From Arthrobacter roseus (GTDB lineage Bacteria; Actinomycetota; Actinomycetes; Actinomycetales; Micrococcaceae), in contig NZ_JAFBCU010000001.1 in NCBI RefSeq assembly GCF_016907875.1, forward strand, positions 2,294,001 to 2,358,000: a DNA stretch of 64,000 nucleotides, written 5' to 3'. Below, one piece after another: positions 40,090-60,448 of the stretch. The notes under the pieces are model-generated. The model worked only from the letters and a program-made list of their open reading frames with translations, made no database searches and was not told where the DNA came from. The position numbers were made by a program, and so were the translations under genes. How positions within the stretch are numbered: position 1 is the first letter of the stretch; each line of letters begins with the position of its first letter.

Positions 40090-41047
40090 GCGTCACCGCT
40101 TCCACGTTCTGCTCCATCCATTCCACGTATTCCTGGTCCTCCGGAAGCGTTTCGGTAAAGTTCACTACAGGAACTCCGGCTTTTTCAGCGACATCCCGGA
40201 CAGCTTCGGTCTGCTGACTCTCCGTCTGCTGGTTATAGGCGAGGAATGAAATGTCCTTCTCTGAGACTAGCTGTTCCATGTTTCTCATCGCGACGATGGA
40301 CACATCCGTTCCCTCCTCCAAGGCCTCGGTATAGTCCGCGGGCGTGAGGTTTTCAAAGCCAGCGTCCTCCAACAGGTAGAGCGGAACGGGTTCAGTTACC
40401 GCAATGGAGGCCCCGTCCGTTTTCTGAGCAAGCGCGACCAGATCTTCCTCGAGTGCGTTCAGGGAAGACGTGACGTTCTCAGCATTTCGATCAAACTCAA
40501 CGGCTCCACCGGGGTCGGCTTCACCCAAGACTCGCGCGATTTCGGCGACCAACAGCGTCATGGAGTGCAAGTCATACCAGACGTGTTCATTGACGGTTCC
40601 ATGGTCATGGTGATCCTCCTCCTGCTGCGGCTCCTCACCGCCATGAGCATCTTCACCGGCTTCATGGTTCAACCCCGAAACGTCAACGGCCGAGATGACG
40701 CGATCCGCCGGCATCTCGACGCTATCGGTCAGTTTCTCCATAAAACCGTCATACCCGCCGCCATTGAGCACGACAACGTCCGCCTCGGAGACCGCAAGTT
40801 TGTCCCGTACTGTCGCCTCATAGGAGTGCGGGTCTTGAGTGGGCCCGGAAATGATGGAGGAGACCCTTACCCGGTCTCCTCCGATCTGACGTGCAATGCT
40901 CCCGTAAACATCGGTGGAGGCGACGACGGCGAGTGAGTCCTCCGATTCTGAATTTCCTGCCTCCCCGGAAGGAGCGCCGCAAGCGCTGAGTGCAAGACCC
41001 GCTCCAGCAAGGCAGGTGAGGAAACGGAATCCAGATGAAATACGCAT
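40073..41047 (-). CDS. znuA: Zinc ABC transporter substrate-binding lipoprotein
   Basis: Metal-binding protein of 324 residues of cluster A-I. It begins with a lipoprotein signal with lipobox LSAC (Cys23). Metal ligand candidates are His in TQDPHSYEAT near 74, the His-rich loop DAHGGEEPQQEEDHHDHG near 140 (zinc-loop type), and HVWYDLHSM near 155. The C-terminal half has SIAVTEPVPLYLLEDAGFEN and a NQQTESQQTE segment, typical of the actinobacterial zinc proteins. The acidic/His loop is characteristic of zinc rather than manganese proteins. A palindromic operator candidate lies 54-70 bases upstream. Confidence 0.92.
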   Translation of the reverse strand: MRISSGFRFLTCLAGAGLALSACGAPSGEAGNSESEDSLAVVASTDVYGSIARQIGGDRVRVSSIISGPTQDPHSYEATVRDKLAVSEADVVVLNGGGYDGFMEKLTDSVEMPADRVISAVDVSGLNHEAGEDAHGGEEPQQEEDHHDHGTVNEHVWYDLHSMTLLVAEIARVLGEADPGGAVEFDRNAENVTSSLNALEEDLVALAQKTDGASIAVTEPVPLYLLEDAGFENLTPADYTEALEEGTDVSIVAMRNMEQLVSEKDISFLAYNQQTESQQTEAVRDVAEKAGVPVVNFTETLPEDQEYVEWMEQNVEAVTHAVGK

Positions 41048-49337: not shown

Positions 49338-49936
49338 TGGAAGAGCGCAGAATCCGCGTGGCTGCGGTCGGAGACGAATTGCTCGCCGGTCATGGTGATC
49401 CGCGAGCACTCGGCTGGCTCGGCCGTGTCCTTGCCCGGACCAGTCCCGAAGATGCGTCCCTGGAAGCGTATAGCCTTCCCGCGCCGCGGGAAGGCACAGA
49501 AGCTCTGGCCAACCGCTGGCTGCAGGAAGCCGGCAGACGCTTCGATGATGACTGTGAAAACCGGCTCGTCATCGGGCTGTCGGACCGCGATCTGGATCTC
49601 GAGTTGTCAACCGCCAGGAGCCGCCTGAATCTAGCGAACGTCCTCGACGGAGCTGCACAAATGAATGTCAAGGTGTTCGTTGTGGGCCCCCCTCCCGGTC
49701 TCGATGCTGAACGAAATCGACGTCTGGCAGATTTGTCCGCAGCGTTTGGCGATGTGACCACCCGGCGAAAACACGTTTATGTGGACACATTTACACCGCT
49801 CCTTAACCATGAGCAGTGGCGCTCGGATCTGGCGTCCAACGGCGGCAGGCCTGGCCAGGCAGCCTACGGGCTGCTAGCCTGGCTGGTCCTTCACCGTGGA
49901 TGGTACGCGTGGTTAGGTATGCCTCAGCCGGGATAG
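49337..49936 (+). CDS. SGNH/GDSL-hydrolase-like protein lacking catalytic residues
   Basis: A 199-residue protein with the SGNH fold outline: the first strand VAAVGDELLAGHGDPRALGW (residues 8-27), the LVIGLSDRDLDL region near 77 and a long C-terminal helix. In active enzymes block I reads GDSL and the last block DxxH. Here block I reads GDEL and the last reads NGGRPGQ (near 177), so both the Ser and the His/Asp are missing. It may be a binding protein or use a different chemistry. It shares one base with the kgd stop (TGATG), and would be made in step with Kgd. Confidence 0.78.
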   Translation: MEERRIRVAAVGDELLAGHGDPRALGWLGRVLARTSPEDASLEAYSLPAPREGTEALANRWLQEAGRRFDDDCENRLVIGLSDRDLDLELSTARSRLNLANVLDGAAQMNVKVFVVGPPPGLDAERNRRLADLSAAFGDVTTRRKHVYVDTFTPLLNHEQWRSDLASNGGRPGQAAYGLLAWLVLHRGWYAWLGMPQPG

Positions 49937-57126: not shown

Positions 57127-57153
57127 CCGAATTTCTCATCGGAGGCGCTAATG

Positions 57154-57169
57154 TTTAGGAATGCCTAAA
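57154..57169. promoter_or_regulatory. MntR/DtxR-type operator overlapping the mntA start codon
   Basis: A perfect palindrome TTTAGG-AATG-CCTAAA with four spacer bases fits the DtxR/MntR-family box. The ATG of mntA (57161-57163) lies inside it. A GGAGG motif (57141-57145) precedes an ATG at 57151 five bases downstream; that ATG opens a five-codon ORF (57151-57168) in another frame. The closely matching regulator gene mntR lies in the same cluster. Confidence 0.7.
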
Positions 57170-58081
57170 GATTCATCTTCGCCCCACCTTCAGTGGGCGG
57201 GTATCGTTCCCCTGATCCTAGGCCTTATCCTCAGCGGGTGCGGCGCCCCTACGACCGCGCACGAACCCGACGACCGCCCCATGGTCATGACCACTTTCAC
57301 GGTCTTGGCGGACCTTGTGCAAACAGTGGGCGGTGAACACGTCCGGGTGGAATCGATCACGAAGATCGGTGCGGAGATCCACGGATATGAGCCCACCCCC
57401 TCAGATCTGGTCAACGCTCAAGACGCGGATCTAATCCTTGACAACGGCTTGGGACTGGAACGGTGGTTTCAGCGCTTCGTGCAACACGTCGATGCACCGC
57501 GTGTTGTCTTGTCCGACGGCGTGTCCCCCCTTCCCATCACGAACGGCCGTTACGATGGCGAACCCAACCCGCATGCCTGGATGTCACCCATTGCGGCAAA
57601 AGTTTACGTGGACAACGCCGTCGTCGCCCTGTCCAACCTCGATCAAGAGCACAGCGCCGACTTCCGGCGCAATGGCGATCGGCTCAACGCCGAACTCGAT
57701 GCGCTGATGCAGGATTTCCGCACAGCTTTCACCGGTAAGGACGCCACCATCTTGGCAACCTGCGAAGGGGCATTCTCCTACCTCGCCCGGGATGCGGGCC
57801 TGACAGAGGTGTATCTCTGGCCAGTGAACGCAGAGGCGCAGGGGACCCCGCGCCAGACGCAAAAAGTCATCCAGACCGTCCGAGAGCACAACGTACCTGC
57901 AGTGTTCTGCGAATCGACTGTCAACCAAGAAGCGCAGAAGAGGGTTGCCGCAGAATCCGGTGCGCAGCTCACCGGCCCCCTCTACGTCGATTCCCTCTCA
58001 GGGCCGCAAGGACCTGTTCCCAGCTTCCTAGCATTGCTGAGGCACGATCTCACCGTCATCAAAGAAGGACTCACGGAATGA
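57161..58081 (+). CDS. mntA: Manganese ABC transporter substrate-binding lipoprotein
   Basis: A 306-residue cluster A-I binding protein with a lipoprotein signal ending LSGC (Cys27). The predicted metal ligands are His in EIHGYEPTPSDL near 72, His in NPHAWMSP near 132, Glu in TCEGAFSYLARDAG near 199 and Asp in YVDSLSGPQG near 278. His-His-Glu-Asp is the arrangement of manganese binding proteins such as PsaA and MntC, whereas zinc proteins have a third His. No His-rich loop is present, unlike the zinc protein at 40073-41047. Its ATG lies inside the operator palindrome. Confidence 0.88.
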   Translation: MPKDSSSPHLQWAGIVPLILGLILSGCGAPTTAHEPDDRPMVMTTFTVLADLVQTVGGEHVRVESITKIGAEIHGYEPTPSDLVNAQDADLILDNGLGLERWFQRFVQHVDAPRVVLSDGVSPLPITNGRYDGEPNPHAWMSPIAAKVYVDNAVVALSNLDQEHSADFRRNGDRLNAELDALMQDFRTAFTGKDATILATCEGAFSYLARDAGLTEVYLWPVNAEAQGTPRQTQKVIQTVREHNVPAVFCESTVNQEAQKRVAAESGAQLTGPLYVDSLSGPQGPVPSFLALLRHDLTVIKEGLTE

Positions 58082-58845
58082 GAAGATACCCGGTCTCAAC
58101 AAGCATCGAGCCATCGATCCACGTTGAGAATCTCAGCGTCCGCTACCAGGAAACCCTTGCGCTGTCCGACGTGGAACTCCGTATTGAGCCCGGACGTATT
58201 TGCGGACTCATCGGCATGAACGGGTCCGGAAAATCGACCCTGTTCAAGGCCCTCATGGGCTTGGTCCAGCCAGACACGGGCAGAATCATTTTGAACGGCA
58301 TGAGCATTCGGGCTGCGCGCCGGCATAACGCCGTCACCTACGTGCCCCAGTCCGAGGACGTCGACTGGTCCTTCCCACTCTCAGTTCGCGACGTCGTCAT
58401 GATGGGACGTTATGGGCGGATGGGACCAACCCGCAGGCCGAGAATAGCAGATCGCGCTGCCGTCGAGCATGCCCTGGAGAGAGTTCAGCTCACCACACTG
58501 GCTCACCGTCAGATCGGCCAATTATCCGGCGGCCAGAAAAAACGGGTTTTTGTGGCACGCGGAATTGCCCAAGAGGCGTCCCTTCTGCTCCTTGATGAGC
58601 CGTTCGCCGGCGTCGACCGCACGTCCGAAGCTAACATCACCGGCCTGCTCAAGGAGCTCAAGGCGGAGAACCGCACCATCCTCGTCTCCACCCACGATCT
58701 GGCGGGCGTCCCCGAACTCTGCGACGAAGCCGTCCTACTTCACCAGAGGGTGCTGGCGCACGGAACCCCCACGGACGTGCTCACAAATGAAAACCTCGCT
58801 CGAGCCTTCGGCGCCGCGGCGACACCGGCCGAAGGACAGAGCTGA
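58078..58845 (+). CDS. mntB: Manganese ABC transporter ATP-binding protein
   Basis: A 255-residue ABC ATPase. Walker A GMNGSGKSTLFKALMGL is near residue 43, the Q-loop in VTYVPQSEDVDWSFPLSVRDVVMMGRYGR near 87 has the VDWSFP run typical of manganese/zinc cluster C-I ATPases, signature LSGGQKKRVFVARGIA near 146 and Walker B LLLLDEPFAGVDRTS near 168. The ATG overlaps the mntA stop by four bases (ATGA). The gene drives metal import with its neighbours. Confidence 0.93.
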   Translation: MRRYPVSTSIEPSIHVENLSVRYQETLALSDVELRIEPGRICGLIGMNGSGKSTLFKALMGLVQPDTGRIILNGMSIRAARRHNAVTYVPQSEDVDWSFPLSVRDVVMMGRYGRMGPTRRPRIADRAAVEHALERVQLTTLAHRQIGQLSGGQKKRVFVARGIAQEASLLLLDEPFAGVDRTSEANITGLLKELKAENRTILVSTHDLAGVPELCDEAVLLHQRVLAHGTPTDVLTNENLARAFGAAATPAEGQS

Positions 58846-58847
58846 CC

Positions 58848-59702
58848 ATGGACGTTCTCGCCTGGCTCACTGAGCCCTTCCACTACGGGTTTCTCACTCG
58901 CGCGCTCATTGTCACCCTGGCGGCTGCGCTTGTCTCCGCCGTGCTCTCCTGCTGGCTCATTCTCATGGGCTGGTCACTGATGGGGGACGCCGTGTCGCAC
59001 GCAGTTCTGCCAGGGGTTGCCCTGGCCTATATTGTCGGCGCACCATTCTCCCTCGGCGCTTTCGTCTTCGGGGCCGGCGCCGTCTCCCTGATAGGCCTGG
59101 TCCGTTCCACCACCAGACTCAAGTCCGACACCGTGATCGGCGTCGTCTTCACATCCCTCTTTGCCGTCGGATTAATCATTGTCTCCGCAACGCCAAGCCA
59201 AGTGGATCTCGGGCATATCCTCTTCGGGAACGTCCTCGGAGTCAACGACGCCGAACTATGGCAGGTAATCATCCTAGGAGCGCTGACGCTGGCTGCGCTC
59301 CTCTTCAAACGTCGGGACCTGACGCTCTATGCGTTCGACCAGGTACACGCGCACGCTATTGGGCTCAGCACACGCCTGCTCTCCGCCCTGCTGCTGGGCC
59401 TGCTTGCCCTCACCGTCGTCGTCGGGCTTCAGGCTGTGGGAATCATTCTGGTGGTGGCCATGCTCATCACACCCGGGGCAACAGCCTTCCTGCTCACACG
59501 AAAGTTCACCACCATGCTAATCATTGCGGCTGGCCTCGCCGTCGGGTCCTCCGTAGCGGGGATCTACGCAAGCTACTATTTCGATGTATCCACCGGCGCA
59601 TCCGTTGTCGTGGCCCAGTCAGTATTGTTCTTTTGTGCTTATCTTTTTGCACCACGAACCGGAGTGCTGACGAACATCAGACGCGCAACGGCAACACAGT
59701 GA
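58848..59702 (+). CDS. mntC: Manganese ABC transporter permease
   Basis: Polytopic ABC-3 family permease of 284 residues, with about eight or nine helices. MGWSLMGDAVSHAVLPGVALAY near residue 42-63 is the conserved first motif, and AVGIILVVAMLITPGATAFLL near 200 is the signature of the family. It pairs with the ATPase 2 bases upstream; the stop TGA overlaps a GAAGGAGG that precedes mntR. Naming of individual subunits as mntA, mntB and mntC differs between species; I use order of genes. Confidence 0.91.
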   Translation: MDVLAWLTEPFHYGFLTRALIVTLAAALVSAVLSCWLILMGWSLMGDAVSHAVLPGVALAYIVGAPFSLGAFVFGAGAVSLIGLVRSTTRLKSDTVIGVVFTSLFAVGLIIVSATPSQVDLGHILFGNVLGVNDAELWQVIILGALTLAALLFKRRDLTLYAFDQVHAHAIGLSTRLLSALLLGLLALTVVVGLQAVGIILVVAMLITPGATAFLLTRKFTTMLIIAAGLAVGSSVAGIYASYYFDVSTGASVVVAQSVLFFCAYLFAPRTGVLTNIRRATATQ

Positions 59703-59719: not shown

Positions 59720-60448
59720 ATGGCAGGAACAGACGACGGCCAGTCCGCCGATGCGCACAGTGCCAGTGTGCAGGACTATGTGAAGGTGATTTACGGGCTG
59801 ACTGAGTGGAGGTGCGCGCCAGTGACTCCCGTCCGGATCGCGAAACGACTCTCGGTCGCGAACTCCTCCGTGACAGGGATGCTGACAAAACTTGTCCGGC
59901 TGGGGCTCGTGGACTACGTTGCCTACAAGCCCGTCCTGTTGACCCCGGAAGGACGCACCCTCGCCCTGACCATGGTGCGCAGGCACCGTCTTCTCGAAAC
60001 CTTCCTCGTCCAAGATCTTGGTTACACCTGGGATGAAGTCCATGCCGAGGCGGAAATGCTAGAACACACCGTCTCGGACCGATTCATTGAGGAGCTGGAC
60101 AAGAGGCTCCACCGTCCGCGTCGAGACCCACACGGTGATCCGATTCCCTCCCACGACGGCACCATCGTACTCCCCCAGGCCCATCCTCTTTCCGAGCTCG
60201 ACGACGGCCATCCGGGGCACTTAGTGCGTGTCAGCGATGAAAATCCGGCTCTGCTAAGATTCCTGACCACCGAGGGAGTTTCCCTCGATACCCCCGTAAA
60301 GGTCCTCGAGCGCAACCAGTTCGGTGGATCGATGCGTGTTGGTTTCGGAGAGAGCCCCAACGTCACAGTCCTCAACGCCGGAGACGAGATGGCGGACGCA
60401 CTCTGGATCCATTCCACCGACACTCACATTGGGTGCAACCTTGTCTAA
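59720..60448 (+). CDS. mntR: Manganese-dependent DtxR-family regulator MntR
   Basis: A 242-residue regulator with an N-terminal winged helix (IAKRLSVANSSVTGMLTKLVRLG, about 40-62), a dimerisation domain and a C-terminal SH3-like FeoA domain (about 165-242). The metal ligands point to Mn2+: Asp19 stands at the place of MntR Asp8, and Glu112 replaces the Cys102 of iron-responsive DtxR/IdeR, with Glu115 and His116 nearby and His89. The FeoA domain is typical for IdeR-like forms, so it mixes both types. The ATG at 59720 has GAAAGGACA close upstream. It probably controls mntABC through the TTTAGG palindrome. Confidence 0.88.
   Translation: MAGTDDGQSADAHSASVQDYVKVIYGLTEWRCAPVTPVRIAKRLSVANSSVTGMLTKLVRLGLVDYVAYKPVLLTPEGRTLALTMVRRHRLLETFLVQDLGYTWDEVHAEAEMLEHTVSDRFIEELDKRLHRPRRDPHGDPIPSHDGTIVLPQAHPLSELDDGHPGHLVRVSDENPALLRFLTTEGVSLDTPVKVLERNQFGGSMRVGFGESPNVTVLNAGDEMADALWIHSTDTHIGCNLV

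Follow-up and report, generated by a model that had tools for sequence, protein, structure and literature searches.

In Arthrobacter roseus, positions 57149-57169 of the window (the whole 64,000-nucleotide stretch analysed) very probably hold a leaderless promoter fused to an operator of the regulator MntR, with a five-codon open reading frame as a by-product. RNA polymerase would recognise the hexamer TAATGT (-12 to -7) and start at the A of the mntA ATG at 57161. A transcript starting there would be leaderless and free of the mini-ORF; it would begin with a bare 5′ AUG and be translated without a Shine-Dalgarno sequence. When manganese is plentiful, MntR would bind TTTAGG-AATG-CCTAAA, which is predicted to span -7 to +9, and block RNA polymerase. 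DtxR acts in this way at the promoters that it represses, through sites that overlap the -10 or fall downstream of the start site (PMC5784534).

Table 1. Features of the mntA promoter region and the downstream gene cluster (positions in the window).
Feature	Position	Strand	Remarks
GGAGG, Shine-Dalgarno-like	57141..57145	+	not conserved
TAATGT, predicted -10 box (TANNNT) of the mntA promoter	57149..57154	+	ends 6 nt before the mntA ATG
five-codon ATG ORF, MFRNA-stop	57151..57168	+	judged a by-product of -10 box and operator, not a gene
predicted MntR operator, TTTAGG-AATG-CCTAAA	57154..57169	+	exact palindrome; on the mntA start in relatives; mntR nearby
predicted transcription start (+1), A of the mntA ATG	57161	+	placed by its distance to the -10 box
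mntA, Mn(/Zn/Fe) ABC transporter substrate-binding lipoprotein, 306 aa	57161..58081	+	Pfam ZnuA 6.4e-73
mntB-type ATP-binding protein	58078..58845	+	best NCBIfam match manganese/iron ABC ATP-binding protein, 3.1e-85, under cut-off
mntC-type permease	58848..59702	+	Pfam ABC-3 2.2e-78
mntR, DtxR/MntR-family metalloregulator with FeoA/SH3-like domain	59720..60448	+	Pfam Fe_dep_repress, Fe_dep_repr_C

The predicted operator palindrome and its probable regulator

The 16-bp palindrome has no mismatches between its arms. Its exact sequence occurs once in the window and once in the 3.08-Mb genome, and 100 dinucleotide shuffles of the window contained no exact copy of it. Elsewhere in the window, a palindrome-like site at position 49912 carries three mismatches. 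A genome site that differs from the palindrome at one position (L032) lies within an apparent membrane-transporter coding stretch; as we saw no connection to manganese, we rejected it as a second MntR target. The letters at 57154-57169 bear out the original observation that the palindrome includes the ATG of mntA. This ATG is the sole usable start of the gene, because an in-frame TAA at 57149 excludes any start further upstream.

The regulator gene mntR is the last gene of a cluster that also comprises mntA, an ATPase and an ABC-3 permease. The best NCBIfam match of mntA was an EfaA-type Mn/Fe binding lipoprotein (1.2e-54, under the curated cut-off). For mntR, whose start is preceded by a GGAGG-type ribosome binding site, the nearest NCBIfam model was MntR (8.1e-48, under the cut-off) and the best solved relative was PDB 5zr4 (5.6e-60). 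The minus strand of the window also encodes a distant second ZnuA-family binding protein (40340-41002; ~31% identity to mntA), of which a similar copy is found in a genome of the same genus (L148).

DtxR and IdeR half-sites resemble TTTAGG/CCTAAA, so the operator might be read by another DtxR-family regulator, of the iron-responsive DtxR/IdeR type, instead of the mntR product of the cluster. We consider this very unlikely. The mntR product comes from the same cluster and resembles MntR-type models and 5zr4 more closely than DtxR/IdeR. An iron regulator should have numerous sites, whereas the genome contains a single exact copy of the palindrome. An operator of the MntR/DtxR type is marked by a conserved palindrome at promoters of manganese-uptake genes and by a cognate regulator in the genome; manganese-dependent binding and repression would be its third trait. 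Here the palindrome recurs on the start codon in 63 of the 108 non-redundant loci, and mntR completes the same cluster. The earlier assignment of the palindrome as an MntR box is therefore well supported by the comparison across relatives, as a predicted binding site.

Conservation of the box on the mntA start codon

We gathered mntA loci from relatives and from named genomes (the latter chiefly actinobacterial, with a handful of cyanobacterial ones) and compared the 108 non-redundant ones, the window (L001) included. In 63 loci, the palindrome overlies the mntA start codon in frame and in the same register; it was found elsewhere in 20 loci and was absent from 25. The in-frame test demanded an ATG or GTG at the box; ATG was the start codon in 48 of these loci and GTG in 15. 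A family-wide search with a strict box pattern matched 48 of 298 genomes, compared with two matches for the reversed control pattern. In most of the loci read from this search, the ATG of the box opens an MntA-like protein.

In loci L066-L145, every box with an NATG spacer near mntA was in frame with the gene, and off-start boxes had other spacers. Since the off-start boxes in these loci are never NATG, we rejected protein preference alone as the reason for the ATG in the spacer. A few NATG boxes that do not open mntA were found in other loci, namely the upstream copy of L007 and L028, L149, L151 and L152. The last three are free of mismatches, have an ATG spacer and open no mntA-like gene; they possibly represent other MntR targets. 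As a separate observation, Nocardiopsis and related loci (L072, L084, L088, L092, L121, L124 and L132) carry the variant box GTTMGGNRTGCCGAAC on the mntA start. There the start is mostly GTG, and a TANAAA-like motif takes the place of TANNNT upstream.

A TANNNT motif ended 5-7 nt before the mntA start in 46 of the 63 box-on-start loci and was missing at these distances in the other 17. In 1000 shuffles of the upstream 40 bases, the mean count was 5.3 and the maximum 13, although p-values overstate the significance of such counts because the loci are phylogenetically related. Twelve relatives have the motif at 5 nt, a spacing that is not enriched in this genome. Shine-Dalgarno-like words at the usual distances were found in four of the 63 loci only.

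Leaderless geometry and the probable origin of the mini-ORF

The motif TANNNT about 12 bp upstream of the start is a mark of leaderless genes, which make up more than 20% of actinobacterial genes (PMC3160421). For translation in mycobacteria, a 5′-terminal ATG or GTG is both necessary and sufficient (PMC4633059). We counted spacings in 464 kb of this genome (G+C ~60%), covering 409 long ORFs and 986 candidate early ATG or GTG codons. TANNNT stood 6 nt before 38 of these candidates, compared with about four at other spacings (~10-fold enrichment) and 16 at 7 nt. Among internal in-frame ATG or GTG codons, which served as a control, 11 of 4420 had the motif at 6 nt (Fisher p ~2e-19 for early versus internal codons). 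Leaderless promoters of this geometry therefore appear to precede roughly a tenth of the genome's long ORFs.

The mntA promoter has this modal spacing of 6 nt. It also lacks a Shine-Dalgarno sequence at a working distance, as the GGAGG is 15 nt away and not conserved. No good match to a -35 element was found before mntA and a sigma-70 scan gave no promoter, although actinobacterial promoters conserve this element only weakly (PMC3898074). A leaderless mntA transcript had been offered as one of two alternatives. The comparison supports it well, with a start at 57161 predicted from the promoter geometry.

The other alternative was that the operator DNA also encodes a leader peptide, with mntA translated by termination-reinitiation on a leadered transcript. 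Its starting point is sound: GGAGG is properly spaced for the ATG at 57151 (5 nt), and the mntA ATG lies 15 nt away. A five-codon frame does open at 57151, although the TAA that had been placed at 57168 spans 57166-57168, with 57168 as its last base. The end of the frame overlaps the mntA start, and the same five-codon ORF occurs in L139 and in L002, which comes from the one further genome of this genus in the comparison. Still, we regard a translated leader peptide as extremely unlikely. A leader peptide gene should be conserved together with its own ribosome binding site, but the mini-ORF is absent from 60 of the 63 box-on-start loci. Intact MntR boxes without it were found many times, including a perfect one in L003. 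Among the three loci that have the mini-ORF, GGAGG precedes it in the window only; it is missing from L002, as from nearly all other relatives. The encoded peptide, moreover, changes wherever the spacer of the box changes.

Both ends of the mini-ORF have another source. Its ATG lies inside a TANNNT hexamer each time (TAATGT in the window, TATGTT in L002 and L139), and its stop codon is part of the right arm of the palindrome, CCTAAA. An ATG directly before the palindrome thus yields a five-codon ORF automatically, which makes the frame a single coincidence and not two. With an ATG that belongs to the -10 hexamer and a frame that is not conserved, termination-reinitiation at mntA also finds no support.

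A mixed arrangement was also weighed: most mntA mRNA would be leaderless, while GGAGG and the mini-ORF would be present on a minor transcript that reads through from the methyltransferase gene upstream, resulting in low basal translation of mntA or in a block. The methyltransferase gene points the same way as mntA, with 34 nt between its end and the mntA start, and we found no terminator between the two. In such a longer RNA, the arms of the palindrome could pair over six bases and leave the AUG in the loop. However, the predicted fold is no more stable than that of shuffles (z -0.40) and the arrangement is not conserved, so we judge this very improbable. GGAGG is probably fortuitous and at most used by read-through transcripts.

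In the favoured leaderless transcript, a hairpin of the palindrome is impossible because only its right half is transcribed. RNA-level control by the palindrome is therefore not expected. As the fold is no better than shuffles and leaderless RNA lacks the left arm, we rejected control by an RNA hairpin. A single element governing both transcription and translation, as originally proposed, is not needed.

The predicted operator as coding sequence and its relation to known systems

The predicted operator extends into the gene and thereby sets the first codons of mntA: ATG-CCK-AAA encodes Met-Pro-Lys, and the N-terminal MPK in the window is encoded by operator DNA. Where codon 3 encodes lysine, it was AAA in 44 of 45 cases compared with a 26% share of AAA over the remainder of these genes, a contrast that is favoured somewhat by the choice of boxes through similarity to an AAA-containing pattern (up to two mismatches). 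This bias indicates that the operator, and not codon preference, sets these codons.

Second MntR-like boxes were found at several fixed offsets in the tandem-box analysis, which covered 62 loci as the 63 start-codon loci contain one duplicate pair. In eight Arthrobacter-type loci (L027, L125, L129, L133, L134, L136, L141 and L143), mntA contains a second box within the gene, 22 bp downstream of the start-codon box, where it encodes a conserved FRCAK or FRRAK at codons 6-10. Upstream copies were found at two preferred spacings, in bp: at -23/-24 (L005, L007, L066, L067, L068, L071, L080 and L098) and at -27/-28 (L077, L079, L094, L099, L103 and L113). By chance, about 0.03 loci per offset would be expected. 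The window itself has no second box at the mntA locus at the threshold used. From these sequence comparisons, we favour the reading, which we hold to be reasonably likely, that the MntR operator of actinobacteria is part of the mntA coding sequence and fixes its start and Met-Pro-Lys. The copy at +22 bp in Arthrobacter-type loci would likewise fix codons 6-10 (FRCAK), so that the demands of a DNA-binding protein would determine residues of the signal peptide. The boxes in the coding region are putative binding sites.

In a leaderless gene, repressor site, promoter and start codon can share a stretch of about 20 bp, and an operator can constrain the N-terminus of a protein. The mini-ORF also serves as a warning, as ATG-opened mini-ORFs upstream of leaderless genes can be -10 boxes. 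The literature searched, which did not include key primary papers, gave no description of a conserved fusion of an operator to a start codon, of N-terminal residues set by an operator or of tandem boxes in a coding region.

The ingredients, a leaderless promoter and an MntR-type operator, are known. Like the leaderless genes of Actinobacteria with an upstream TANNNT (PMC3160421, PMC3898074, PMC4633059), mntA has this motif about 6 nt before its ATG or GTG and lacks a Shine-Dalgarno sequence; here, in contrast, a repressor operator is fused to the junction of -10 box and start codon and supplies the first codons. As cited in PMC3022926 and PMC13001254, the mntABCD system of Corynebacterium diphtheriae likewise has a DtxR-family MntR that represses a manganese ABC transporter in response to metal. 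The Deinococcus DR2539-mntH system (PMC3327659) shares a manganese-responsive DtxR-family repressor with an SH3-like domain and an inverted repeat in the promoter of a manganese transporter, but its target is mntH and a figure legend marks a ribosome binding site there. In the DtxR-repressed promoters of C. diphtheriae (PMC5784534), operators are placed as predicted here, but the detailed example has leaders of 38-43 nt, which keep the operator clear of the coding sequence. The mntA promoter-operator is a conserved variant of known elements.
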